64,000 nt of DNA, taken from Candidatus Saccharimonadota bacterium. Lineage in GTDB: Bacteria; Patescibacteriota; Saccharimonadia; Saccharimonadales; UBA4665. Numbering within the stretch: position 1 is the stretch's first letter; the number at the start of each line of letters is the position of its first letter. Below, one piece after another: positions 20,608 through 44,504 of the stretch. The position numbers were made by a program, and so were the translations under genes. Where the stretch lies: positions 1 to 64,000 of the forward strand of contig JARIHI010000003.1 of NCBI GenBank assembly GCA_029288365.1. Reading direction: 5' to 3'. The notes below the pieces were generated by a model, which saw nothing but the letters and a program-made list of their open reading frames with translations, was not told the DNA's origin and did no database searches.

Positions 20608-22554
20608 CTATGTATCTTGTTTTTTTGACACATCGAGTGCTGTATTGATAAATTCAGCATGACTCCAAACAAGTGGCGCAACTGATACTTGCTGACCTGT
20701 AGTAGGATTAACTTGCTCGGATAATATACCACTTTGCAGGGTTTTGCCCAGTGTCCACTCTAAGTAATACTTTGCTTTCTCAGGCCGGCTAGTTCGGACG
20801 TAGTATTGAGCCATCCATAAAGTAGTTACAAACCAGGGATTTCCTAACAACGGTGGGTCTGACTCGAAATAATGATCATTTTCATACCGGGGTGTACCTC
20901 CGGCAGGACATTGGTCAAGCAATATTGATTCTATAGTGTTTACTGTAGCGTCAATGGTAGATTTTGCAAAAATGTTATCATCACCGAACATAATTACACC
21001 GTATAGGCTTGAGATATCAATAACGTTGTCGAAGGCTAGTGAACCATCTTCTTTTAATAAGTAGCCTTTTCGGAATGCTTGCCGTTCCTCATTAAAGAAA
21101 ACCTTTGCGTTACTTGCAATGGATTGAGCAGTCTTTTGCCATCGTACTGCGTCGTCTGGATATTCAAATTTCTCGGCAAAATCAGCTGCAACCAGAAGGG
21201 CTTGATAAACACAAGCCGTAGTATACGTTGATGTCAAAAATTTTTCTTCCCATAAATCATAACTAGCGTGGGGCAAGCCGGTTTGCTCGTCGATAAAACC
21301 AGCCATAAAATCAGCAGCAGGTTGAATGAATGTCGTATAAAGACTAAGTACAAAGGTATCATCAGCAGACGCTGCGTGGTATTCGCCAAGCATATAAAGT
21401 ACCACCGCTGTTTCATCTTCTTGGATAGCAAGTTCTTTACGGTCACCATGTATAAGCGGATGCCAAGTACTTCCAATGGAGCGATCTGGTTGGTATTTGT
21501 GTTTCAGGTAGCCTTCTGGCGTTAGGATGTCCCTGCAAAACTCAAAAAAACTCTTAGCTTCCTCTGTATAGCCAAGTCTGATTAGAGGCCATATGGCGTA
21601 CGCACCATCACGAGGCCATACGTAGCTGTAATAATCCCGTCCGAAGTTATAGATAGACGAATCACACGAAGCTATGATACCCCCACGCTTATCAATATGA
21701 GCTTTTATAACCATTAACGATTTTCGGGCCATGTGTCGGTAATCATCCTCTACTGTTTGCAGGCGACGATCTGCAATGTGGAGCCATTCATACCAGTATT
21801 CACGCGTATCGGACAAACGCTTATCGAGTCCAGCAGCTTTAAATGTTTTGTGAATCTTTTCTGCGCTATATTGAGAATCAGCAGCAATAACCCAATAGTC
21901 AATAGTTTTACTTTTTTTAGCCCCGACACCACAGACAAGGCGAAGGACCGTGTCAACACCTCCATGCTCTACGGCATTATTAGTCAGTTCACCGTCTTCA
22001 GCGTCTCTATAAGTGCCTTCTTTGCCTTCGATGCCATAATTCCCGATAGAAAATTGATCGTATTCCGTGCCGTCGTCTAACTGACCGTATATAAGTAAGC
22101 AGCAACGACCTTTGTAATCTAATATGTAGTTTTCTTCTGGAACATATAGTGCAGTATCAGCACGTCCAGCTCGTGATATTTGGAATACCTGGTGCATGAA
22201 TACCCGAATATCCCGGTAAGATTCGGCTAAGTTATTTACAGTAATTCGCCGGCAAAATGCATTGACCTCACTATCTACAAAATCGTTAAAGTGAAGTGAA
22301 ACTTGGAGGTTATTGTTGTGCATGTCGACAGAGCTTACTAGTGCATTGTTTTCAAAATCAACAGAAACTTCCCAGTCATTACCGCCCACCCAAGAAAAAC
22401 TTCCATCGATCCATACCCCAATTTTATGGTGCACACTTCGAGATGTTGTTAGATTATCAAGACCTACATAGGGGTAGTAAAAATCATGCACTAGACCAAA
22501 CTCATTAAGCCCGACAGTCAACTGACCATTACCAAGCATCACTGGGCGCGCCAT
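20608..22554 (-). CDS. Glycoside hydrolase family 15 (glucoamylase-like)
   Basis: 648 aa. An N-terminal beta-sandwich domain (about 1-250) is followed by the (alpha/alpha)6 catalytic domain. YVWPRDGAYAIWPL near residue 306 carries the conserved WPRD of the active site, and ESDPPLLGNPWFVTTLW lies towards the end. It would release glucose from alpha-1,4/1,6 glucans. No signal peptide, so probably cytoplasmic. GGGAG lies 7-9 bases before ATG. Last gene of the GT4-GH57-GH15 cluster. Confidence 0.88.
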   Translation of the reverse strand: MARPVMLGNGQLTVGLNEFGLVHDFYYPYVGLDNLTTSRSVHHKIGVWIDGSFSWVGGNDWEVSVDFENNALVSSVDMHNNNLQVSLHFNDFVDSEVNAFCRRITVNNLAESYRDIRVFMHQVFQISRAGRADTALYVPEENYILDYKGRCCLLIYGQLDDGTEYDQFSIGNYGIEGKEGTYRDAEDGELTNNAVEHGGVDTVLRLVCGVGAKKSKTIDYWVIAADSQYSAEKIHKTFKAAGLDKRLSDTREYWYEWLHIADRRLQTVEDDYRHMARKSLMVIKAHIDKRGGIIASCDSSIYNFGRDYYSYVWPRDGAYAIWPLIRLGYTEEAKSFFEFCRDILTPEGYLKHKYQPDRSIGSTWHPLIHGDRKELAIQEDETAVVLYMLGEYHAASADDTFVLSLYTTFIQPAADFMAGFIDEQTGLPHASYDLWEEKFLTSTYTTACVYQALLVAADFAEKFEYPDDAVRWQKTAQSIASNAKVFFNEERQAFRKGYLLKEDGSLAFDNVIDISSLYGVIMFGDDNIFAKSTIDATVNTIESILLDQCPAGGTPRYENDHYFESDPPLLGNPWFVTTLWMAQYYVRTSRPEKAKYYLEWTLGKTLQSGILSEQVNPTTGQQVSVAPLVWSHAEFINTALDVSKKQDT

Positions 22555-22651
22555 TAGAAACTCCCTCTGGCTGTAAGATACAAATTACTGCGGCTTGAAT
22601 TCAGGATTAGCCCAGTAAAACATACTCTACTCAACTCGTTAAACCCTAAGC

Positions 22652-23863
22652 TCATATGTGTATACCTTTCTCACTAAGTCGGAACTTTAAGTCATGATAG
22701 GCGTTCATAAACGCAATGAAAGCGTCATAAGGATTTTCGTACGGGCTAAAGTAGGCGTGTATATCGCCATCATTAAACCATTTAGTACACATGTAGTAAA
22801 AATGGTCAGAGGTCTGCAATCGGCGATAATCTTCAATAAGGCTTAGATCATTGGTATCTAAAATTTTCTGATGCATATCATATAAAGCATGAATAGCTTG
22901 TTGCTGCATACCATTACCAAGCCAGGCACTGAGATCACGCTCAGTATCAGCCCAAGTAACGGTGTAAGGCATGTCTACTCGGTCTTTTGCGTCGAAAGTA
23001 TCGATAGTTTCGCTAACTGTCATAAAGGTATTACCCGGTGTCTTTAGCCATTGTTCTGGCAGGTGGTAAAGGAAATTAAAGATGCCCGAATCATCCCATT
23101 GATGCTCTCCAAAGGTCTCATAATCCATAAATAAATTAAAATTGGTGCCTTCGCTTGTTTCATTAAGCCAATGAGTAAATTTATCAGCAGTCAAAGGCCA
23201 TTCCGCCCAGTTTTGATCACCAAAACGAAAGGCTATGTCGTCACTGAGCTTATAATTTTTCATAAGTAAACGGATGTTATCGGTATAAGTAGGTTGGTAT
23301 ACAAAATTTGGACTGCGCCATCCGAGTATCGGATCCCAGCCTTCTGCCAAAATACCTTTATAACCAGCTTTATCTGCCCAATGCGCCAGATCGTTGTTAT
23401 ATGAAAGCTCGGTATTACGAAATACCTGAGGTGTTTGACCGAATACACTCTGTACCTTTTCACGGTGCATGTTCACCTGGGTTTCAAATTCATCACGGTT
23501 ATAGAAAAAGGCTAGACTGTGATGATATGTTTCGCCGACTATCTCAACTCTACCGGTAGCAACGAGATCCTTGAAAGACTGCAAGGCCTCTGGTGACCAC
23601 ATTTCAAGCTGTTCAATCACCGTACCAGTTATAGACAGGCTCAGTCGAAATTCCGGATACTTTTGAAGAAGCTCCAATAAACGAGCGTTGGTGGGTATAT
23701 AAGACTTCTCGGCAACTTTATGCAGAATCCGCTCATTACTAGTACGGTCTTCGTATGGCATGGTAAAAAAATAGTCGTGATTTACACCTGCGTCAAAAAT
23801 GGTGTAGTGTCGTACGCGGAACGGCTGATGAACGTGCAAATACATGACTATTGCTCGGTTCAT
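22652..23863 (-). CDS. Glycoside hydrolase family 57 (alpha-amylase/glucanotransferase)
   Basis: 403 aa with GH57 hallmarks in order: HVHQP near residue 11, VEIVGETYHH, FRNTELSYNN (the region of the catalytic Glu nucleophile) and FMDYETFGEH (the Asp acid/base region). Acts on alpha-glucans as amylase or 4-alpha-glucanotransferase; which cannot be told. Overlaps the upstream glycosyltransferase by 4 bases, so expressed with it. Confidence 0.88.
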   Translation of the reverse strand: MNRAIVMYLHVHQPFRVRHYTIFDAGVNHDYFFTMPYEDRTSNERILHKVAEKSYIPTNARLLELLQKYPEFRLSLSITGTVIEQLEMWSPEALQSFKDLVATGRVEIVGETYHHSLAFFYNRDEFETQVNMHREKVQSVFGQTPQVFRNTELSYNNDLAHWADKAGYKGILAEGWDPILGWRSPNFVYQPTYTDNIRLLMKNYKLSDDIAFRFGDQNWAEWPLTADKFTHWLNETSEGTNFNLFMDYETFGEHQWDDSGIFNFLYHLPEQWLKTPGNTFMTVSETIDTFDAKDRVDMPYTVTWADTERDLSAWLGNGMQQQAIHALYDMHQKILDTNDLSLIEDYRRLQTSDHFYYMCTKWFNDGDIHAYFSPYENPYDAFIAFMNAYHDLKFRLSEKGIHI

Positions 23864-25065
23864 GCTACTGCCTCCATCAGGTGGTTATCGTAGATTGCCT
23901 GTAGCTTGTGTGCTGAGCTGTCCCAGCTTAAACGCGTAAATTCTTGATATGAATTGTTGTGGAGCTCGCGCTGTAAGCTGTCATTTTGAACGACAGCAGT
24001 GATTTTGTTGGCCATCTCGTCAACATCCCAAAAGTCCACTTTAAGACAGTTCATTACGACTTCACTTACACCAGATTGTTTACTGATGATAGCGGGGGTA
24101 CCGTAGCTGATGGCCTCTAGGGGAGTGAGACCAAAAGGCTCAGAAACTGATGGCATAACAAATACGTCACCTATAGCGTAGGCGTCACGCCAGTTTTTGC
24201 CGCGCTGGAAGCCTGTGAAGATAACATTTTTAGAAATACCTAATTTTGCAGCGAGTTCTATAAGTTCAAAATATTGTTCGCCGCTCCCCACAATTAAAAA
24301 AATTGTCTTGGGGGCACGAACGATTACTTCTTTTGCGGCATGTAGCAGATTAGGCAGGTTTTTTTGCATAGTTAAACGACCTATGCTTGTAACGACTCGG
24401 TAACCCTGCTGCTTCATAGCGGTTAAATAATGGTACGCGTTAGTAGGATCAAGCGGTTCCAGGCCTTGACTATCTATACTGTTGTGTACAACGTCTATTT
24501 TACTAGCAGGAATACCGTAATCTTCAATAATACAACGCTTAGTGTGCTCACTAACAGCTATAATCTTATCTGCCATATGAAGTCCTAGGCTTTCTATTTC
24601 TCGCACCAGAGGATTGCCATCGTTTCCTCCGGCCCGATCACGCTCTACAGAATGTACATGCACTATAAGTGGTATATTTGTCAACCTACGTGCCTGCAAG
24701 GCAGCGCGAAATGTAAGCCAATCATGTGCATGAATAACGTCGTAACTGCCATATTTTGCCAAGTGGGTCACGGCGTGCTCGTATAACAACTGTTGTTCAC
24801 TAAGGCTCAAGTATTCTTCGTGACCATCTGCAAAAGTATATTTGTAGCTATCATAGGCGATACCACTCATTTTAATGGCGGTCACCCCTTGTGGGTGAGC
24901 AGCTATTACTTTCATAAAATCGACAGGTTCATCGTGATTGTATGGTAGAACGAACTCTATATCGATATTTTTTTTAGAGAGGGCTTTGCAAAGCTGGTAG
25001 CATGCCACACCCAGCCCACCACTATTATAGGGAGGCAACTCCCAGCCAAGCATCAATACTTTCAT
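23860..25065 (-). CDS. Glycosyltransferase, GT4/GT5-like (glycogen synthase-like)
   Basis: 401 aa from the ATG whose complement is 25063-25065 (MKVLMLGWELPPYNSGGLG); a longer frame to 25131 is less likely. Two Rossmann folds, the Gly-rich N-terminal loop for the sugar nucleotide, and the E-x7-E region EPFGLTPLEAISYGTPAI. With GH57 and GH15 it suggests synthesis and remodelling of a storage glucan. A TATAAT on the minus strand lies about 33 bases upstream of the ATG. Confidence 0.85.
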   Translation of the reverse strand: MKVLMLGWELPPYNSGGLGVACYQLCKALSKKNIDIEFVLPYNHDEPVDFMKVIAAHPQGVTAIKMSGIAYDSYKYTFADGHEEYLSLSEQQLLYEHAVTHLAKYGSYDVIHAHDWLTFRAALQARRLTNIPLIVHVHSVERDRAGGNDGNPLVREIESLGLHMADKIIAVSEHTKRCIIEDYGIPASKIDVVHNSIDSQGLEPLDPTNAYHYLTAMKQQGYRVVTSIGRLTMQKNLPNLLHAAKEVIVRAPKTIFLIVGSGEQYFELIELAAKLGISKNVIFTGFQRGKNWRDAYAIGDVFVMPSVSEPFGLTPLEAISYGTPAIISKQSGVSEVVMNCLKVDFWDVDEMANKITAVVQNDSLQRELHNNSYQEFTRLSWDSSAHKLQAIYDNHLMEAVA

Positions 25066-25191
25066 TAGCCTCTGTTTTCTGCAACTTATGTGTTTGGTGT
25101 GTATTATAAACCGCTTAAGCCTGAAGCACAACCGTTTTCAAGAAGATTTTGAAGAGTTTAAGCATAAATTAATTTTACAGTTATACATGCC

Positions 25192-34632: not shown

Positions 34633-34935
34633 TTATGGAAGCTCCAGTACCTGTGACTCGTCAGGCTTCTTAAATACGCAATACGCCAAACCGCTGATTG
34701 CTACAACAGCAGCTATTTTATTTTGTAATTGTATGGCAGCGGATTTTTTAGCAAGGTTCTGCTCTCTTTGCCTACATGCATGATTACACTCCTCCTGAAA
34801 TGCTCTTTCCAAGCCATACAAAGCACCCATATCATACAGTCGTATCGTGGTGACAATGAAGTAACCGATAGCAGCTACCGTTACAATCACTATGAAGAAT
34901 GAAAAACTATCAGTGACATTACGAGATATTTTCAT
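34633..34935 (-). CDS. Small membrane protein (100 aa)
   Basis: A first helix (SFFIVIVTVAAIGYFIVTTI), a Cys-containing charged middle (ECNHACRQREQN) and a second hydrophobic stretch near residue 75. No family recognised; no obvious Shine-Dalgarno. Confidence 0.5.
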   Translation of the reverse strand: MKISRNVTDSFSFFIVIVTVAAIGYFIVTTIRLYDMGALYGLERAFQEECNHACRQREQNLAKKSAAIQLQNKIAAVVAISGLAYCVFKKPDESQVLELP

Positions 34936-34986: not shown

Positions 34987-35015
34987 TTGACCTCTGTTTT
35001 TTTAGTTGCTATACT
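34987..35015 (+). promoter_or_regulatory. Promoter of the five-gene operon
   Basis: TTGACC at 34987-34992, 17-base spacer, TATACT at 35010-35015 preceded by TGC (extended -10). Start near 35022; a GAGAGGG ribosome site follows before ATG 35047. Confidence 0.7.
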
Positions 35016-35046
35016 ATTTAAAATAAATGTGAGAGGGTTATAGAGA

Positions 35047-35604
35047 ATGGCTTCTGCTTGGAAGAAACGTTTAATTTCACAAGGTGACCTTATGACGTTG
35101 CACGAGAAATTAAATGAAAAGGGTAAAAAGATTGTATTTACCGCTGGATCATGGGATCTGGTACATGTAGGACAACTTCGCTATCTTGAGCTGGCCAAAT
35201 CAAAAGGCGACATACTAGTAGTTGGAGTAAGCAGTAATGACGCGATAAAGCGTGTCAAAGGGCCAAATAAGCCTATCTTGGACGAAAAAATCAGGGCCGA
35301 AATGCTTACTTATTTACGGTGTGTCGATTTTGTAACGATCTTACCGGAGCCAAGCTGCCAACCGTCACTCGGTCTTCTAAGGCCAGACGTATACGTGACA
35401 GTTAAAGAAGACTGGACTGAAAATTATAAAGACTCACGCGAATACAAAACTGTCACCAAATACGGCGGAACAGTAGAGGTCATTGATCGTCAGTCAACAA
35501 CTATCTCCACTACCAAGATCGTGCAGCGTGCTATCGGTGGACATTTGGGAGATGTATTTAAGGATTTTATGGAGCTACGCAAAGATCCCCTTAAGGAGCG
35601 CTGA
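35047..35604 (+). CDS. RfaE2/HldE-C-like nucleotidyltransferase
   Basis: 185 aa. The nucleotide-binding motif is GSWDLVHVGQLRYL near residue 39, with HVGQ in place of the usual HxGH; KRVKGPNKPIL and STTISTTKIV (the C-terminal TxxST-like site) follow. It should join a phosphorylated small molecule to a nucleotide (ADP- or CDP-activation). First gene of an operon with HIT-Nudix, deaminase, kinase and GT4 genes. A paralogue starts at 63656. Confidence 0.8.
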   Translation: MASAWKKRLISQGDLMTLHEKLNEKGKKIVFTAGSWDLVHVGQLRYLELAKSKGDILVVGVSSNDAIKRVKGPNKPILDEKIRAEMLTYLRCVDFVTILPEPSCQPSLGLLRPDVYVTVKEDWTENYKDSREYKTVTKYGGTVEVIDRQSTTISTTKIVQRAIGGHLGDVFKDFMELRKDPLKER

Positions 35605-35611
35605 CACCATA

Positions 35612-36601
35612 ATGAGTAAGCTAACCCCTGAGGATCAAAAAAAACAGGAGCTCTACCGTGACGCACGTTTTACGAACCAGTACGATCAAATTTGGCAATC
35701 AGTTGGTAAGTGCGTATTTTGTGACTTGAAAGAAAAATACGTCATTTTTGAAGAAAATGGTATCGTATTAACAATTAGCTTGTTCGCTTATATAGACGGG
35801 CACTGTATGATCATGCCGCGTAGGCACGTAAGATCACCTAAGGAGCTCACTGACCTGGAGTGGGACACGGTACGAAAATTCTCTTACATTGCCAAGAAAT
35901 TGATCAAGGACGTACATAGTGTTAAGGGTATGCAACTTATTTATAAGGATGGGGTAGAAGCTCAGAGCACCGTGGAGCACCATTTACACTTTCACTGTGT
36001 GCCATTTGATGCGCCCGACCTTATGGAATGGAATTACCGTAAACTCCAATACACGCCGCTTGAAAATACAAATCAATACAAACAAGCACGTAAAAAAATT
36101 ATTACCTCTGGCGCTAAGTTTGATAAAAAGTACCACCAGTCTCACAGCTTACCTATATATTGTGACGTTATTATTCTTTCATCAAATAGAGAAATTTTAT
36201 TCCAAGAGCGCGCAGAATCACACAAACTGTCACCTGACTTCTTGACCCCTCTTGGTGGAAAAGTCGAATCATTTACACGCACTTTACAAGAAGAACTTGC
36301 TCGAGAAATTAACGAAGAAGCAGGAATTACTATATCACCAAAGGATTGCACGCTTTTATCGTCCAGGGTCGATACTGTTAAGCACACTAATGTATCGAAG
36401 CAATTAAAGGCAACATACCCTACAACTACTGTTTTCTTACGTAATACCTATCTTTTGAAAAACTTCGATAAAAATACCAAACTAACACCGGGTGACGATG
36501 CCGAAAATTTCGTGTGGATACCTATAAACGAAATAGCCAGTCATGAACGCATTTCTGAAAGTACTAAAGAAATTATAGAATTGATACAAGATGAGCAGTA
36601 A
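35612..36601 (+). CDS. HIT-Nudix fusion protein
   Basis: 329 aa from ATG 35612. The N-terminal HIT domain has CVFCDL (residues about 34-39) and the catalytic histidine triad HHLHFHCVP near residue 129. The C-terminal Nudix domain (from about 180) has LGGKVES and REINEEAGI, but where a normal box reads GE it has an insertion-like FTR, so the first box glutamate is displaced. Both domains hydrolyse or transfer nucleoside phosphates. Overlaps the next gene by 11 bases. Confidence 0.82.
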   Translation: MSKLTPEDQKKQELYRDARFTNQYDQIWQSVGKCVFCDLKEKYVIFEENGIVLTISLFAYIDGHCMIMPRRHVRSPKELTDLEWDTVRKFSYIAKKLIKDVHSVKGMQLIYKDGVEAQSTVEHHLHFHCVPFDAPDLMEWNYRKLQYTPLENTNQYKQARKKIITSGAKFDKKYHQSHSLPIYCDVIILSSNREILFQERAESHKLSPDFLTPLGGKVESFTRTLQEELAREINEEAGITISPKDCTLLSSRVDTVKHTNVSKQLKATYPTTTVFLRNTYLLKNFDKNTKLTPGDDAENFVWIPINEIASHERISESTKEIIELIQDEQ

Positions 36602-37565
36602 TCAGTATACCTTTGACTGGAGTGAACTGGCCTTTAAGAGTAAGAAGCCGCTAAATGATCTCAATGCCATATTTATTGCCGCACCACGAGAACTTTCAAA
36701 AGCTCGCTTTGCTGAATTGATAAAAACTTACCTGCCGAAGGGTAACGTAGTGTTAGGGATTGCCAAAGAGCCTTATATTGACGGATTCGATGGTCAGCCG
36801 CAATTTCGTACCCTAACGCTCGAAAATGTGCAATCAATTATTGATAAAGTAAACAAATCTTCATCACAGCGGAAAATTTTCACTCTGACATATTATCAAC
36901 GTGAAACTCAGTACATTTTTGAAAAAATAAAATGGCAGCGTGTACTGCTTATAAATGGATCGTGGATGTATGCATTTCATACAACAACACCTTATTATGC
37001 ACTGGTAAACCGTCGGATACCGATAGACCGCATCTCACCCTTTGTAAGCGAAGTCGAAGCGCGAAAATACGAAAAAACTATAGAATCACAACTTTTGCCC
37101 CTTCCTAAATCCAGCACGATCCTATCTGAAACAGCAATGCTTGAAGCGGCCGCCCAAGCAGCAAATCACTCCTATGATTATAACTTTCAAACAGGTGTTG
37201 CCTTAGGTAAAAAAGAAAGTAAAGCCTACAAACTGCTAGCTACCGCTTATAACGCTGTCGTACCATTTCAGACCTATGCTATGCATTATGGTGCATCACG
37301 TGAGCAAAATTTTTCGCCCCCAAACGATCTCAATCATTACGATACGGTTCACGCTGAAGTATGCCTTATCCTTAAGGCACAAGAAGAAAATATAAATCTC
37401 TTAAACAGTACGTTATTTATTAATCTGCTTCCATGTCCGGTTTGCAGTCGTATGCTTACAAAAACTCCAATCGCTGAAATTGTATATCAGCAGGATCACT
37501 CAGACGGCTATGCTGTAAAAATGCTTGAGAAAGCCGGGAAAAAAGTCAGAAGGCTTGCCGTATAA
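36591..37565 (+). CDS. Cytidine/dCMP deaminase-like protein with unknown N-terminal domain
   Basis: 324 aa. The C-terminal third has the zinc site of the deaminase superfamily: HAEVCLIL (His ligand and catalytic Glu, near residue 256) and PCPVCSRML (two Cys ligands, near 283). The first 170 residues (IFIAAPRELSKARF, LLINGSWMYAFH) match no family I know and may be nucleotide-binding. The substrate is unknown; neighbours suggest a nucleotide or nucleotide sugar. Confidence 0.72.
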   Translation: MSSNQYTFDWSELAFKSKKPLNDLNAIFIAAPRELSKARFAELIKTYLPKGNVVLGIAKEPYIDGFDGQPQFRTLTLENVQSIIDKVNKSSSQRKIFTLTYYQRETQYIFEKIKWQRVLLINGSWMYAFHTTTPYYALVNRRIPIDRISPFVSEVEARKYEKTIESQLLPLPKSSTILSETAMLEAAAQAANHSYDYNFQTGVALGKKESKAYKLLATAYNAVVPFQTYAMHYGASREQNFSPPNDLNHYDTVHAEVCLILKAQEENINLLNSTLFINLLPCPVCSRMLTKTPIAEIVYQQDHSDGYAVKMLEKAGKKVRRLAV

Positions 37566-37571
37566 AATCCC

Positions 37572-38591
37572 ATGCAAGAAGCTACGATACTTCGCGCCTA
37601 TAACTGCTATGGGCTTGGTACTGTGCAATTACTTGGCAAGCATAAAGGCTACAGAAACACCTCATACCCAGCGAAATTGCCAAATGGCGAGATAGTAAGC
37701 CTAATTTTATACAAATCAGAAACTGGCATGCGTGAACGCATCCAGTATATACATAGGGTGAGTAACCAACTCAAGGATGTCATGCCAGTACGTACTCCTT
37801 GGGATTCACGGATTTTAATGCTCAAAGTCGAAGAAACGGTACGTTACGCCGGGCTATACACTTATTTACCAGGAGCAACTATTCCGTGGGAGGCTTATAC
37901 GAAACATCATATTAAATTATTAGGAATGGCGATGGGTCACATGCATGCTGCGCTTACAAATTTACAGCCAAATAACCCGCCGTTGGTTGCCGATGAGTAT
38001 ATGGCTATTTGTCAGCGAATGACACTGTATTTTACATCTAGTGGGGTTCAAAAAGCTCTGCAGCAAAAACTACACACCACTATAAGCATGGATGTGCTTA
38101 ATCTGTATCAAACTATCCTGAAAACTACTAAAAAACTACCGTGTCAGCGTATGTTGCACATGGACTTCGTGAGAGGCAATGTATTATTCGATAAAGTCGA
38201 GACCGTCAATCAAACGTCATTACAAATAGGCAACATAACTATCAGTGGTATAGTGGACCTTGAAAAAACTGCCTATGGTCATCCTGCATTTGACATTGCC
38301 CGAACCCTCGCTTTTTTGTTGGTTGACAGTAAGTATAAGTCCCCTGAAAAGACAAGAAAATATTTTTTGAACTCGGGTTACGTGAAACGAGGTAAACAGA
38401 AAATACCGAATATTACTTATACAATGTACGGACAAAAAATAGACGTACTAGAAATCCTGATCGACATGTTTTTGGTATACGATTTTTATAAGTTTTTACG
38501 TCATAATCCCTACGAATCACTTTCTGAAAATGAACATTTTATCCGTACTCGTGCTATGTTACTACAAAAGGGAGTTTTACAAGCCTTATGA
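37572..38591 (+). CDS. APH/choline kinase-like phosphotransferase
   Basis: 339 aa. The catalytic loop HMDFVRGN near residue 194 is the Brenner motif of the aminoglycoside/choline kinase family, and GIVDLEKTAYG near 228 supplies the metal-binding Asp. A small-molecule kinase, which would feed the upstream nucleotidyltransferase. Overlaps the GT4 gene by 4 bases (ATGA). Confidence 0.75.
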   Translation: MQEATILRAYNCYGLGTVQLLGKHKGYRNTSYPAKLPNGEIVSLILYKSETGMRERIQYIHRVSNQLKDVMPVRTPWDSRILMLKVEETVRYAGLYTYLPGATIPWEAYTKHHIKLLGMAMGHMHAALTNLQPNNPPLVADEYMAICQRMTLYFTSSGVQKALQQKLHTTISMDVLNLYQTILKTTKKLPCQRMLHMDFVRGNVLFDKVETVNQTSLQIGNITISGIVDLEKTAYGHPAFDIARTLAFLLVDSKYKSPEKTRKYFLNSGYVKRGKQKIPNITYTMYGQKIDVLEILIDMFLVYDFYKFLRHNPYESLSENEHFIRTRAMLLQKGVLQAL

Positions 38592-39736
38592 GAGTCGCTA
38601 TTGTTGTACCGCATATTTTTATGCATCAGGATATTTTGCCAAAGGTTATATTTTCACCTGGCACTTTAGCAATTGAGCTTGCCGAAGGTCTTCAGGACTT
38701 AGGACTAGACGTCACGTTATTCACTCCAGGGCCAATTGATACTAAAGTTTCTAATAGTACGGCAGACCTGAGTAATTTTGATGCTGAACTACGAGGTAGG
38801 AGCGACACATATATAGATTTACTAAAAAAACATCCTCTGACTTTTATTACGCTTGCCCGGCAAGTCCAGGCTGAATTAATTACTGAGGCATACAAAAGAG
38901 CCAACGCCAACGAATTTGACCTTGTGCACATCTACACGAACGAAGAGGAGATTGCTCTGGTCACAGCAGATCTTTGTAAAAAACCAGTAGTATTTACTCA
39001 TCACGATCCATTTAACTTTTTGGTAAAATATAAAGCCATATTTCCTAAATACTTACACCGAAACTTCATATCTATCTCGAATTCCCAAAGAAGAGGTATG
39101 CCGAAAGACACAAATTGGCTAGCAACCATTTACCACGGCATGGACCCGCAGGCTTATAAACCTGTAGAAAATCCACGAACAGACTACGTAGCCTATCTTG
39201 GTCGTATTATCGAACCTAAAGGCGTACACCTAGCTATCCAAACCCTACAGCAACATAATCGAGTTCACCCAAATGATCCTCTTGTGTTAAAAATTGCTGG
39301 GAAGCACTATAGCGGCAAAAAAGACCAATACTGGCAAGAGCAGATTTTGCCGCAACTTGACGACAAATTCATCGAGTATGTTGGCTTTATTGAAAGCTCG
39401 AATGATAAGCAAACGTTTCTCGGCAATGCTCGAGCACTTATCATCCCTTCGTTATTTGAAGAACCGTTTGGCATGGTTATGATTGAAGCACTAGCTTGCG
39501 GCACACCGGTAATCGGCATCAATTCCGGCGCAATTTCAGAAGTAATCAGTCAACACAAAACTGGCATTGTAGTACCGAAAACAACCGAATCTCAAATGAT
39601 TACAGATCTCACAAGGGCGATAGAAGATATTAAAAATATTGACCACACTATATGCCGGCAAGAGTTCGAGAAACGCTTTACTTTACAGCGTATGTGCCAA
39701 GAGCATCTGCAGGCTTACCAAAAACTTATAGGATAA
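38588..39736 (+). CDS. Glycosyltransferase family 4
   Basis: 382 aa with an N-terminal Rossmann domain and the GT4 donor-site signature EEPFGMVMIEALACGTPVIG near residue 290. Last gene of the operon; it could use the sugar or alcohol nucleotide made by the preceding genes. It converges with thyA with an 11-base overlap. Confidence 0.82.
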   Translation: MRVAIVVPHIFMHQDILPKVIFSPGTLAIELAEGLQDLGLDVTLFTPGPIDTKVSNSTADLSNFDAELRGRSDTYIDLLKKHPLTFITLARQVQAELITEAYKRANANEFDLVHIYTNEEEIALVTADLCKKPVVFTHHDPFNFLVKYKAIFPKYLHRNFISISNSQRRGMPKDTNWLATIYHGMDPQAYKPVENPRTDYVAYLGRIIEPKGVHLAIQTLQQHNRVHPNDPLVLKIAGKHYSGKKDQYWQEQILPQLDDKFIEYVGFIESSNDKQTFLGNARALIIPSLFEEPFGMVMIEALACGTPVIGINSGAISEVISQHKTGIVVPKTTESQMITDLTRAIEDIKNIDHTICRQEFEKRFTLQRMCQEHLQAYQKLIG

Positions 39737-40538
39737 CGAGTGGGGCCTTGATGTGTGGATGTGGATCGTAATCTTTTAGCACAAAATTATCTTCGGTAAA
39801 ATTATCAATGTCTGCAGGCTTACCCACAATTTCTAGCTTTGGTAATTGTTTTGGCTTGCGTTTAAGTTGCTCCTTGGCTTGATCAAGATGGTTGTTATAC
39901 AGGTGTGCGTTACCAATAGATATAACTAACTCTCTGGCCTCCAAACCCGTCAAGGAAGCCACCATTTGTAAGAGCATAGCGTATTGTGCAATATTGAACG
40001 GTAATCCTAAAAATACGTCCGACGAACGTTGATAGAGTTGCATACGCAACTTACCTTTAGTTACGTCAAACTGAAACATGGTGTGACATGGCGGTAAGCG
40101 CATAGCTTCAAGGTCGGCCACATTCCAGGCATTGACAATAATAGCCTTAGAATGCGGATTGGTTTTTATTTGGTCTATAGTCCACTGTAGTTGATCAAAT
40201 TCTTGTCCATCTTGACCTTTCCAGTGCCGCCACTGTACGCCATATACTGGGCCAAGATTCAAGTCTTTATCGGCAAACTCGTCCCAATAGTGGATCTTGT
40301 GGTCTTGTAAATACTTAATGTTAGAGCTGCCCGAGACAAACCATAACAATTCATGTAACAAGAGAGAAAAGGGCATTTTCTTTGTCGTCAAAAGCGGAAA
40401 ACCATGTCGCAAATCAAAATGCATTTGATAGCCAAAAATAGATTTGATGCCATGTACACCGCGTGTTGGCTTGCTTTTGCCGTTCTTTAAAATCTCAGCC
40501 ATTAGTTTGAGATATTCGTACTCGGGATGGGCAGCCAT
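39726..40538 (-). CDS. thyA: Thymidylate synthase ThyA
   Basis: 270 aa. The catalytic cysteine is in PPCHTMFQFDV near residue 152, with RSSDVFLGLPFNIAQYA and the N-terminal RTxxGxxS-like region reading RGVHGIKSIFG. Converts dUMP to dTMP with methylene-tetrahydrofolate, producing dihydrofolate, which the divergent DHFR at 40742 would recycle. Confidence 0.95.
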   Translation of the reverse strand: MAAHPEYEYLKLMAEILKNGKSKPTRGVHGIKSIFGYQMHFDLRHGFPLLTTKKMPFSLLLHELLWFVSGSSNIKYLQDHKIHYWDEFADKDLNLGPVYGVQWRHWKGQDGQEFDQLQWTIDQIKTNPHSKAIIVNAWNVADLEAMRLPPCHTMFQFDVTKGKLRMQLYQRSSDVFLGLPFNIAQYAMLLQMVASLTGLEARELVISIGNAHLYNNHLDQAKEQLKRKPKQLPKLEIVGKPADIDNFTEDNFVLKDYDPHPHIKAPLVIL

Positions 40539-40741: not shown

Positions 40742-41242
40742 ATGAAAGTGTTTATTATTGCCGCTCTTACTGCTGATGGGTTTATTGCCCGGCATAGCGC
40801 CCATACAGCAGACTGGTCAGTAAAAGAGGATAAACAACTATACGTGCGTTTGACGAAAGAAGCCGGAGTTATGATAATGGGGGCTCGTACTTTTGACACA
40901 ATTGGGCGTGCGCTGCCAGAACGTAAAACTATAGTTTACACTTCAAATCCCGACGCCTACACAGGCTTCGACATAGAGACCACAAAAGAAGCGCCTAAAG
41001 ACCTGCTCAAGCGCCTAGAAAAAGAAGGGTACACCTCAGTAGCTATATGCGGTGGTGCTCAAATATACACCCACTTTTTACAAGCTGGAGCTGTAACTGA
41101 CCTTCATCTTACATATGCGCCACTGCTTTTTGGAAAAGGTATACCGCTTTTTGCAGACAACTTTGACATACAACTTAAACTTGTATCAGTAGAAAAGCTA
41201 GGCGTCGATAGTCTATACGCACACTACACAGTGTTAGCATAA
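40742..41242 (+). CDS. folA: Dihydrofolate reductase family protein
   Basis: 166 aa. IIAALTADGFIAR at the N-terminus, MGARTFDTIG near residue 46 and AICGGAQIYTHFL near 103 are DHFR/RibD-C-like NADPH-binding signatures. Next to thyA, reduction of dihydrofolate is the likely role, although RibD-type reductases share the fold. Confidence 0.82.
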   Translation: MKVFIIAALTADGFIARHSAHTADWSVKEDKQLYVRLTKEAGVMIMGARTFDTIGRALPERKTIVYTSNPDAYTGFDIETTKEAPKDLLKRLEKEGYTSVAICGGAQIYTHFLQAGAVTDLHLTYAPLLFGKGIPLFADNFDIQLKLVSVEKLGVDSLYAHYTVLA

Positions 41243-41293
41243 GGTTGAATAATAGGTAACTTAAGCTTGCATTAGGTGAATCATTATGGCTTA

Positions 41294-43639
41294 ATGAATT
41301 CACAGATGAGCAATATGTTAAGGAAGAGTACGCCCAAGTCAAACGGTGTTTTTGTCGTCGTAGAGGGTACAGACGGCTCTGGTAAAGCTACGCAGTGTCA
41401 GCTACTAGCAGATCGTCTAAAGTCCGAAGGTTATGACGTGGAGGTTTTTGATTTTCCTCGCTATAGCCAACCCTCCAGTTATTTTGTACAGCAATACTTA
41501 AATAGCAAGTACGGGGATATTAATGAAGTAGGGCCGTACAGCGGTTCTCTTTTCTTTGCTCTTGACCGATACGACATCGCTAGAGATATACGGACAGCTT
41601 TAGAAAATAATAAAATTGTGGTAGCAAATCGTTTTACCGCATCAAGCATGGCTCACCAGGGAACTAAGTTTGCCCATGTTGAGGAGCGACGTGGCTTCTT
41701 TATATGGCTAGATAACTTGGAGTTTGAGCTACTTGGCATACCCCGCCCAGACGTAAACTTCGTACTTAATGTCCCTGCAACTATTGCTCAACAACTTGTT
41801 GATACAAAAGAGGCGAGGAAGTATACAAACAAAAAACGTGACTTGCATGAAGCAGATCTACAGCACCTTACAAAATCAGTAGAGATATATGATGATTTAT
41901 GCAAACTTTTCCCTCGTGATTTTCAGCAAATAGATTGCGTGCGTGATGGAAAAATTATGGACAGAAAAGATATCCATACCTTACTATGGGGCAAAGTAGC
42001 TCCTTTGTTGCCTAAGCCGCAGCCTAAACCGTCAAGTCTGAGTAAAAAAGTAGCTAATCCCTATGTGGCACAGACTGAAGTAGGACTTAAGGTCACAAAA
42101 CTTGGCGAAACTTTTCTCCAAGAGATAGTAACAAATACCGAAGATGATGTGTATGCATTGACTGCTACTCTTCCACCGGCAACAGCAGCGGCAGCTATGG
42201 CGCGGCTATGTCGGTGTGGCGATGACCTGCGTCTGACTATTTTGAATGAGTTTGCCCACGCGGAAAGCAAAGACAAAGAGCTACTACAGCGAGTTATTAC
42301 AGCTTATGGAGACGACTCCGTGCAACAGCTGGTCGGACAGTACATTGTGGTAGAAAACGCCAGCAACCTTCTTACTAAAAAATTAGAGTGGGGCAGGCTA
42401 GCCGCATATTTAGAACAGTCAACACGTTATATATACTTTGATAAAAAAGATTCGCAAGGTAAATATAAATACTATACGCCTGATAACTTTGACACAAAGA
42501 CACGCACTCTTTACGAAGAGGGAATGAATTCCATATTTGAACTTTACTCTGAAATGGTACATCGCTTAAACGACCATATTCAAAAACATTCCACTGTACC
42601 AGCCGAAACAAAAGATGCTGCATGGCGAAATGCTACCAGAGCTCAGGCCTGTGATGCTGTACGTCCTGTCTTGCCGGTAGCTACACAATCAACGGTGGGT
42701 ATCTTTGCCTCCGGCCAAGCCATAGAAAATTTGATCCTGCATTTGCTTAGTGACGAACTTATAGAAGCTCAAAGGACTGGAGAAAAAGTACTCAAAGAAG
42801 CTCGTAAAACAATGTCCGCCTTTTTGGAACGTGTTGATAAGCCTGAAAGAGGAGGAGCACACATTGCCTACCGCGCACGTACCCATAAAGCTGTAGAGGA
42901 CCTGGCCAAAGAATTATTACCTGAAAACCATACGATTACCCTAGAAGCGGTTCGCATGACAGATGTATGGCCGCGTAATGAACTAGATGTCGTAGCAGAT
43001 ATGTTGTATGAGCACAGTAACCTGTCATTAGAGGAAATCCGCGCTGAAGTAGAAAAAATGACCTATAAGCAAAAATTAAAAGTCGTCCAAACTTATATCG
43101 GAGAACGGTTGAATCGACGCCACAAACCCGGTAGAGCACTTGAAAAAATCCATTATAGTTTCGACTTGGTTTCTGATTACGGAATCTTTCGCGACCTGCA
43201 GCGACATCGCATGGTAGATGATCTGGAGTGGCAAAGGTTGACTCCTCGTTATGGCTACGAGGTGCCGCAATTGGTTGATAAAGCAGGACTTAGTGATCTA
43301 TTCGAACGATGCTTTGACATCAGTTTAGAACTATATAGCCATCTACAAGCGGCAGGCTATTCGCTTGAAGCACAATATACTACACTACTCGGTCATAAAA
43401 TGCGCTGGAAAGTAACGTATAACGCTCGAGAAGCGTTTCATATACATGAACTTCGCACTTCGCCGCAAGGACACCCTGGTTATCGTAAGCTAGTCCAACA
43501 GATGCATGAGACAGTCGCCCAAGCCCACCCCCTAATTGCAGAGAGTATGAAGTTTGTAAATAAAGGCGAAGATCCTGAACTCACTCGCCTAGCAGCCGAG
43601 AAATATGCTCAATTTAAGGTAGAGCAACGTAATACCTAG
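41294..43639 (+). CDS. dTMP kinase fused to two ThyX-like domains
   Basis: 781 aa. Residues about 15-235 are thymidylate kinase (P-loop EGTDGSGKATQ; DRYDIA; ANRFTASSMAHQG). The rest is two ThyX (flavin thymidylate synthase)-like units. ThyX normally has RHRxxSxNExSxRY. The first unit (near residue 366) reads WGRLAAYLEQSTRY, keeping ExSxRY but not RHR; the second (near 637) keeps RHR but then reads MVDDLEWQ. Start is uncertain: ATG 41294 has CATTAT 6 bases upstream; GTG 41276 is in frame. Confidence 0.82.
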   Translation: MNSQMSNMLRKSTPKSNGVFVVVEGTDGSGKATQCQLLADRLKSEGYDVEVFDFPRYSQPSSYFVQQYLNSKYGDINEVGPYSGSLFFALDRYDIARDIRTALENNKIVVANRFTASSMAHQGTKFAHVEERRGFFIWLDNLEFELLGIPRPDVNFVLNVPATIAQQLVDTKEARKYTNKKRDLHEADLQHLTKSVEIYDDLCKLFPRDFQQIDCVRDGKIMDRKDIHTLLWGKVAPLLPKPQPKPSSLSKKVANPYVAQTEVGLKVTKLGETFLQEIVTNTEDDVYALTATLPPATAAAAMARLCRCGDDLRLTILNEFAHAESKDKELLQRVITAYGDDSVQQLVGQYIVVENASNLLTKKLEWGRLAAYLEQSTRYIYFDKKDSQGKYKYYTPDNFDTKTRTLYEEGMNSIFELYSEMVHRLNDHIQKHSTVPAETKDAAWRNATRAQACDAVRPVLPVATQSTVGIFASGQAIENLILHLLSDELIEAQRTGEKVLKEARKTMSAFLERVDKPERGGAHIAYRARTHKAVEDLAKELLPENHTITLEAVRMTDVWPRNELDVVADMLYEHSNLSLEEIRAEVEKMTYKQKLKVVQTYIGERLNRRHKPGRALEKIHYSFDLVSDYGIFRDLQRHRMVDDLEWQRLTPRYGYEVPQLVDKAGLSDLFERCFDISLELYSHLQAAGYSLEAQYTTLLGHKMRWKVTYNAREAFHIHELRTSPQGHPGYRKLVQQMHETVAQAHPLIAESMKFVNKGEDPELTRLAAEKYAQFKVEQRNT

Positions 43640-43982: not shown

Positions 43983-44504
43983 ATGGCATTAAGCAAACAA
44001 CAGAAGGATGATGTAGTCGCTGAAGTTTCAGAGCTCATCAGTTCTTCAAAAATGACTGTTGTCGCCAAATATCAGGGCACACCAGTAAAAGCTATGCAAG
44101 AGCTACGGCGCCAAGCCAAAGACAGCGGCACTCAAGTAAAAGTTGTCAAAAATCGCTTGGTTATCAAGGCTTTGCAAGCTAGCGATACGTTCAAAGATGT
44201 AGAAACATCTGAACTTGAAGGCATGTTGCTGTACGCATTCAACAGCGAAGACGAAGTAGCACCAGCCCAGAGTTTGGACAAATTTGCTAAAGCTAATCCA
44301 ACAATCCAATTCGTTGGCGCTTACAGCGCAGAAGGTAAGTTCTTAAGTGCTGACGACGTGAAAGCGTTGGCTGGGCTTCCAGGCAAGAATGATCTTATTG
44401 CTCAAGTTATGGCAACGTTGGCCTCACCGGTCAACGATGTTATGAGCGGTCTTTCTGGCAATCTGCATGGACTTTTGGATGGCATTGAAGCAAAAGCAGC
44501 ATAA
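43983..44504 (+). CDS. rplJ: 50S ribosomal protein L10
   Basis: 173 aa. MALSKQQKDDVVAEV start and KVVKNRLVIKAL are typical; the C-terminal helix binds L7/L12 dimers. AAAGGA precedes ATG. L10 with L12 is known to bind its own leader in other bacteria, which fits the structure upstream. Separated from rplKA by 9.4 kb. Confidence 0.96.
   Translation: MALSKQQKDDVVAEVSELISSSKMTVVAKYQGTPVKAMQELRRQAKDSGTQVKVVKNRLVIKALQASDTFKDVETSELEGMLLYAFNSEDEVAPAQSLDKFAKANPTIQFVGAYSAEGKFLSADDVKALAGLPGKNDLIAQVMATLASPVNDVMSGLSGNLHGLLDGIEAKAA

Follow-up and report, generated by a model that had tools for sequence, protein, structure and literature searches.

What function could five genes for nucleotide and sugar enzymes serve in the midst of ribosomal protein genes? 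The window (the whole stretch of 64,000 nucleotides that was analysed) belongs to a Saccharibacteria-type genome of 908 kb that is 97% complete. Five open reading frames on its forward strand code for a CTP_transf_like nucleotidyltransferase (NT; 35047–35604) resembling RfaE2, GCT and ECT, a HIT-Nudix fusion (35612–36601), a deaminase composed of an N-terminal domain and a zinc domain of the dCMP deaminase type (dCMP_cyt_deam; 36591–37565), an APH-fold kinase (37572–38591) and a GT4 glycosyltransferase (38588–39736). An earlier sequence-only reading of this DNA gave the spacing of the genes correctly (gaps of 7 and 6 nt, overlaps of 11 and 4 nt), and the families it named match the Pfam and NCBIfam domain calls (HIT and NUDIX for the fusion). 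It had also placed a strong promoter at the head of the operon. A site TTGACC-N17-TATACT is indeed located upstream of the NT gene (34987–35015, forward strand) and agrees with the consensus at 10 of 12 positions, with an extended −10 element (TG); since the region holds 19 promoter-like sites versus 15.2 ± 3.6 in shuffled sequences, a consensus scan by itself is no proof that a promoter exists here.

The five genes had been described as an operon inserted between rplKA and rplJL. This position is correct, but the operon shares it with further genes. Between the end of rplA (34589) and rplJ (at 43983), the GT4 gene is followed by a convergent thyA (39726–40538, reverse strand; PF00303), which it overlaps tail-to-tail by 11 nt, then by a gene for a DHFR/RibD_C-like reductase (40742–41242, forward strand; RibD_C 66.7 bits, DHFR_1 66.0 bits) and by a fusion of thymidylate kinase (TMK) and ThyX (41276–43639, forward strand; Pfam), the ThyX part of which gives two Thy1 matches. 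The operon thus lies within a thymidylate locus rather than alone between ribosomal genes. The TMK-ThyX fusion is part of the resident dTTP locus, outside the laterally conserved set. Between rplA and the operon there is also a 100-aa open reading frame on the reverse strand (34633–34935), with an N-terminus like a membrane segment and no family match, and farther away GH15, GH57 and GT4 genes form a group reminiscent of glucan metabolism (20608–25131, reverse strand).

Conservation of the gene set

The set is not peculiar to this genome. As the sequence-only reading had supposed, its families co-occur elsewhere: a neighbourhood search found NT, HIT, APH, GT4 and ThyA together with a deaminase in nine sampled genomes from seven families and in one further MAG. 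This co-occurrence rules out a chance neighbourhood, and no clear separate housekeeping orthologue was apparent for the deaminase, NT, APH or GT4 proteins. Orthologues of the APH-fold kinase are present in all nine genomes with an A- or B-type module (see below), in 0 of 46 other genomes of the order and in 0 of 6 D-type genomes. GT4 orthologues, with full-length matches at 57–62% identity, are likewise found in 9/9 A/B genomes but in 0/52 others of the order, and elsewhere there are only paralogues of about 33% identity. The related loci keep GT4, ThyA, APH, NT, HIT and deaminase genes together, at the rplA–rplJ site wherever the position can be read from the contig (G109, G011, G147, G053 and others, the contigs of G109 and G053 being cut on one side); locus L023 has the same set as copies dispersed over about 10 kb. 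As the genes differ in order and orientation from one genome to another, cotranscription of GT4 with the rest is limited to some of the genomes.

The proteins of the set do not diverge in step with the ribosome. Between the window and G147, L11, L1 and L10 are 47–54% identical, yet ThyA reaches 86% and NT 81%; between the window and G134, a member of the same family, L11 is 81% and yet ThyA 69% identical. Since identity within the cluster does not track ribosomal identity, lateral movement of the set seems likely, perhaps through exchange at the rplA–rplJ site. Carriage by phages or plasmids was considered and rejected: a scan of IMG/VR with the deaminase gave no match, plasmids gave none either, and phage records yielded weak HIT or generic NT matches only.

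A smaller core of NT, deaminase, HIT and ThyA recurs across CPR in three architectures besides that of the window (type A). Type B has a short deaminase (G134) or a HIT-deaminase fusion (G038), the rest being as in type A; HIT is fused to the deaminase in locus L105, and in both L104 and L105 a short deaminase is swapped in, with NT, HIT, APH, GT4 and ThyA staying in place. Type C consists of a tandem NT-NT, HIT, a short deaminase and a protein with MtrA-like, ThyA and PterinBD-DUF4346 parts, and an APH-type kinase is nearby in the two cases seen. In L101 (6532–8037), a ThyA-like domain adjoining a C-type module is situated between the MtrA-like and PterinBD-DUF4346 domains. Type D combines NT and a deaminase with a different N-terminal domain of about 120 aa, convergent with ThyA-DHFR-HIT. 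In the NT tree, the sequences of types A and C group in a single clade (99/97), and a second clade (98/96) holds 18 of the 19 D sequences together with the lone NT of genome G022. This last NT (L070) has no deaminase beside it, and neither ThyA nor ThyX was found in that genome.

Beside the module, APH was not found outside A/B and C types, and GT4 was found in A/B types only, which indicates that not all five genes are essential to one reaction series and counts against the explanation favoured below. One could think of two functions on one laterally moving cassette, in which deaminase, ThyA and DHFR would lead to dTMP, and APH, NT and GT4 (with HIT) would carry out a Leloir-type salvage from a sugar or alcohol via X-P and NDP-X to a glycoconjugate, much as the sequence-only reading had proposed. 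Such activation and transfer are known roles of APH kinases, RfaE2-type NTs and GT4s, the NT is RfaE2-like, the GT4 resembles glucosylsucrose and pterin glucosyltransferases, and the restricted occurrence of APH and GT4 suits a separate function. However, in types C and D, which lack GT4 (and, in the case of D, APH too), NT and HIT still accompany the deaminase and ThyA. NT and HIT thus follow the thymidylate genes, not the glycosyltransferase, and we regard a cassette with two functions as possible but rather unlikely.

Thymidylate synthases and dCTP deaminase

The most constant partner of the set is ThyA. The protein of the window is an ordinary thymidylate synthase (PF00303, 364.5 bits) with the PCH motif of the catalytic Cys and the DVFLGLPFN motif of the substrate Asn, and it is 43–47% identical to ThyA of other Saccharibacteria. 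ThyA is encoded in the cluster of every relative. In a sample of 380 genomes of the phylum, it is present in 32/32 genomes with NT and deaminase versus 176/348 others, and within the order in 14 of 15 versus 32 of 134. DHFR, its companion in most loci read, is present in the window, G109, G011, G038 and L023, and in G147 as judged from its sequence. ThyX shows the opposite distribution, with matches in four of 15 module genomes (one of them weak) versus 103 of 134 others in the order; like those for Dcd below, the absences come from profile searches of phylogenetically structured samples with genome completeness of roughly 65–100%. The TMK-ThyX fusion coexists with ThyA in the window and in G109 and is missing from most other module genomes. 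As most A/B genomes give no ThyX match, ThyA is the only dTMP synthase detected there. In two D-type loci, a CofE-like F420 gamma-glutamyl-ligase gene, possibly encoding a folate polyglutamylase, is found beside DHFR (L089, 6943–7743, by Pfam; L090, 10149–10901, by eye).

The combination of ThyA, kinase, NT and GT4 might recall clusters for nucleotide modification, and in type C, ThyA forms one protein with MtrA-like and pterin-binding DUF4346 domains, so that a modified deoxypyrimidine or a pterin cofactor could be envisaged as the product. Yet the conserved Cys and Asn motifs, the identity to other ThyA proteins and the role of ThyA as sole detected dTMP synthase in most A/B genomes make such a product highly improbable.

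Thymidine nucleotide synthesis is essential for every cell. Only a few ways of reaching dUMP are known, through dCTP deaminase, dCMP deaminase or UDP reduction (PMC10733785). Full-length dCTP deaminase (Dcd; PF22769) was detected in 1/41 module genomes as opposed to 67/88 non-module genomes (20/21 within the order, 47/67 in the rest of the phylum), a contrast with a pooled Fisher p of about 1e-16, which overstates the evidence because the genomes are not independent samples. Partial matches to profile positions ~65–152 in frames of 144–177 aa were read as dUTPases and left uncounted. In the 12 non-module genomes of the order compared by coordinates, Dcd lies within ~2.6 kb of TMK-ThyX, and the Dcd-TMK-ThyX block often occupies the same rplA–rplJ site as the module, where examined; L019, L106 and L116 have Dcd, a canonical dCMP deaminase and TMK at rplA. 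Distribution among genomes, location and protein families together show that the deaminase is of the dCMP deaminase type, that ThyA and a DHFR come after it and that the set takes the place of Dcd.

The sole module genome retaining Dcd is G109, which has also kept ThyX, and the window keeps ThyX; both cases count against replacement. They may also be arranged as an apparent replacement series, from Dcd, ThyX and module in G109 through ThyX and module in the window to the module with ThyA only in most others. Since the module replaces Dcd and often ThyX, it is best read as serving dUMP/dTMP supply. We consider it probable that the set, together with thyA and DHFR, constitutes an alternative dUMP/dTMP-supply module. 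That this module replaces Dcd, and ThyX in most Saccharibacteria hosts, is our best explanation overall, and one towards which the evidence leans. The sequence-only reading was right about a recurring family set, but the weight it gave to an activated sugar or alcohol of an unusual kind is not supported as stated: it left outside the constant partners thyA and, in most loci read, DHFR, and the module replaces Dcd and often ThyX. A sequence of kinase, nucleotidyltransferase and transferase may still be a sub-function of APH, NT and GT4.

Protein families and possible reactions

The deaminase has a zinc site HAE...PCPVC (CDA fold), and its nearest structural neighbour is a dCMP deaminase. In a model with a pLDDT of 68.6, the first fifteen Foldseek matches were dCMP deaminases or a bifunctional dCMP/dCTP enzyme (7fh4), and a dCMP-deaminase-like activity is predicted. 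The N-terminal domain of ~170 aa gave no match in Pfam or PDB sequence searches. Folded alone it yielded a weak model (pLDDT 55.6), so its HUP-like Foldseek matches (best E 8e-3) are only a hint that the domain is possibly HUP-like. Profile comparison detected no homology between the A- and D-type N-terminal domains or between either and NT, nor did PDB or Pfam sequence searches relate the two domains. Other deaminases of CPR genomes have extensions of their own: L047 (847–1881) joins a P-loop kinase and a dCMP deaminase in one protein (Pfam-confirmed), and the N-termini of L043 (805–1896), L048 (1474–2520) and L049 (802–1887) look dUTPase-like by eye.

The catalytic motifs are intact across the five proteins with the exception of NT, where HVGQ replaces HxGH. 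NT keeps KEDW and ISTTKI and lacks the RTEG part of RTEGISTT. It scores 118.4 bits with the RfaE2 model TIGR02199 (cut-off 181.5) and 32 bits with that of glycerol-3-phosphate cytidylyltransferase, TIGR01518 (cut-off 165), and hence falls outside both families; its best PDB match is ECT, and its nearest relatives are the CTP-using GCT, CCT and ECT. The HIT motif is HLHFHCV, and the Nudix half is missing in several relatives. The kinase belongs to the APH fold (HMDFVRGN and DLE motifs) and lies far below the score of its nearest NCBIfam model, homoserine kinase PRK05231 (53.5 versus 271 bits). A heptose pathway was rejected because NT scores too low for RfaE2 and the kinase belongs to APH instead of PfkB. 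An assignment of GT4 as pterin glucosyltransferase was discarded too, as glucosylsucrose synthase matches better.

It is conceivable that the deaminase itself acts on dCTP or dCDP, with a role in nucleotide sensing or regulation, not in catalysis, for NT and the HUP-like N-terminal domain. Dcd replacement would then follow directly, the match to 7fh4 would fit, and CDADC1 is a precedent for a deaminase of this fold acting on (d)CTP (PMC12184417, PMC12088426). The HVGQ motif would also be in keeping with a regulator. On the other hand, ISTTKI and KEDW are kept, the NT of L023 retains HxGH, and few proteins of the set are as well conserved as NT (78–82% identity in most module genomes); we regard this reading as improbable.

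In the dUMP/dTMP-supply reading, a deoxycytidine nucleotide would be deaminated to dUMP, bypassing free dUTP, ThyA would convert dUMP to dTMP, and the DHFR-like enzyme would recycle dihydrofolate. More speculatively, NT could use dCTP to charge an alcohol or sugar phosphate (X-P), giving dCDP-X, which HIT with Nudix might cleave to dCMP (or dUMP) and X-P, so that NT and HIT together would provide the dCTP-to-dCMP step needed by the deaminase. The APH kinase would supply X-P in A/B and C types, and GT4 would be a clade-specific accessory. HIT proteins cleave NMP from NDP-X or NpnN. Given this family chemistry and the CTP-using relatives of NT, the carrier route is the simplest use of all core parts. 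Our best explanation as a whole is also supported by the linkage of HIT, which other CPR have in a block with ThyA and DHFR that is convergent with NT-deaminase and which is fused to the deaminase in L105. To our knowledge, a plain dCMP deaminase elsewhere needs neither NT nor HIT, which counts against our best explanation. We regard it as doubtful that NT and HIT form and cleave (d)CDP-X. Somewhat more doubtful still is a complete dCTP-to-dUMP carrier pathway without free dUTP, in which the N-terminal domain would let the deaminase act on or release dCDP-X, HIT/Nudix would free dUMP or dCMP and return X-P, and APH and GT4 would supply and use X in Saccharibacteria.

Relation to known systems

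The component families are known. The open-access papers searched contained no description of their conserved combination, of the mutual exclusion between it and Dcd, or of the two N-terminal domains that lack a match. If the proposal is true, a CPR-wide module that displaces Dcd with the help of NT and HIT would be another solution for dUMP in streamlined symbionts, and several proteins whose present annotation says no more than RfaE-like, HIT or deaminase would gain a function.

An anti-phage system was rejected: PADLOC and NF041025 matches are weak, local and far below curated scores. Anti-phage dCTP deaminases resemble the zinc domain, but in local matches of 48–62 aa only, and the partners of the module are metabolic and situated at a ribosomal/dTTP locus. 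Pathways with kinase and cytidylyltransferase (Kennedy pathway, HldE/RfaE2, TagD) share an APH-fold kinase and a CTP_transf_like NT with the module, and ECT has tandem domains like the C-type NT; they differ in that our NT is under the RfaE2 cut-off and the cluster is ThyA-linked, with no CDP-alcohol transferase seen in it. The Dcd route serves the same step of metabolism and sits at the same place on the chromosome in the loci compared, but with an unrelated enzyme, Dcd and module being nearly mutually exclusive. A route to dTMP through dCMP deaminase, ThyA and DHFR is known from Gram-positive bacteria, eukaryotes and phage T4 (cd/td/frd). The module has the deaminase fold, ThyA and DHFR in one cluster as well, and adds to them the constant NT and HIT, an N-terminal domain for which sequence searches of Pfam and PDB gave no match, and the APH and GT4 proteins of its clade.
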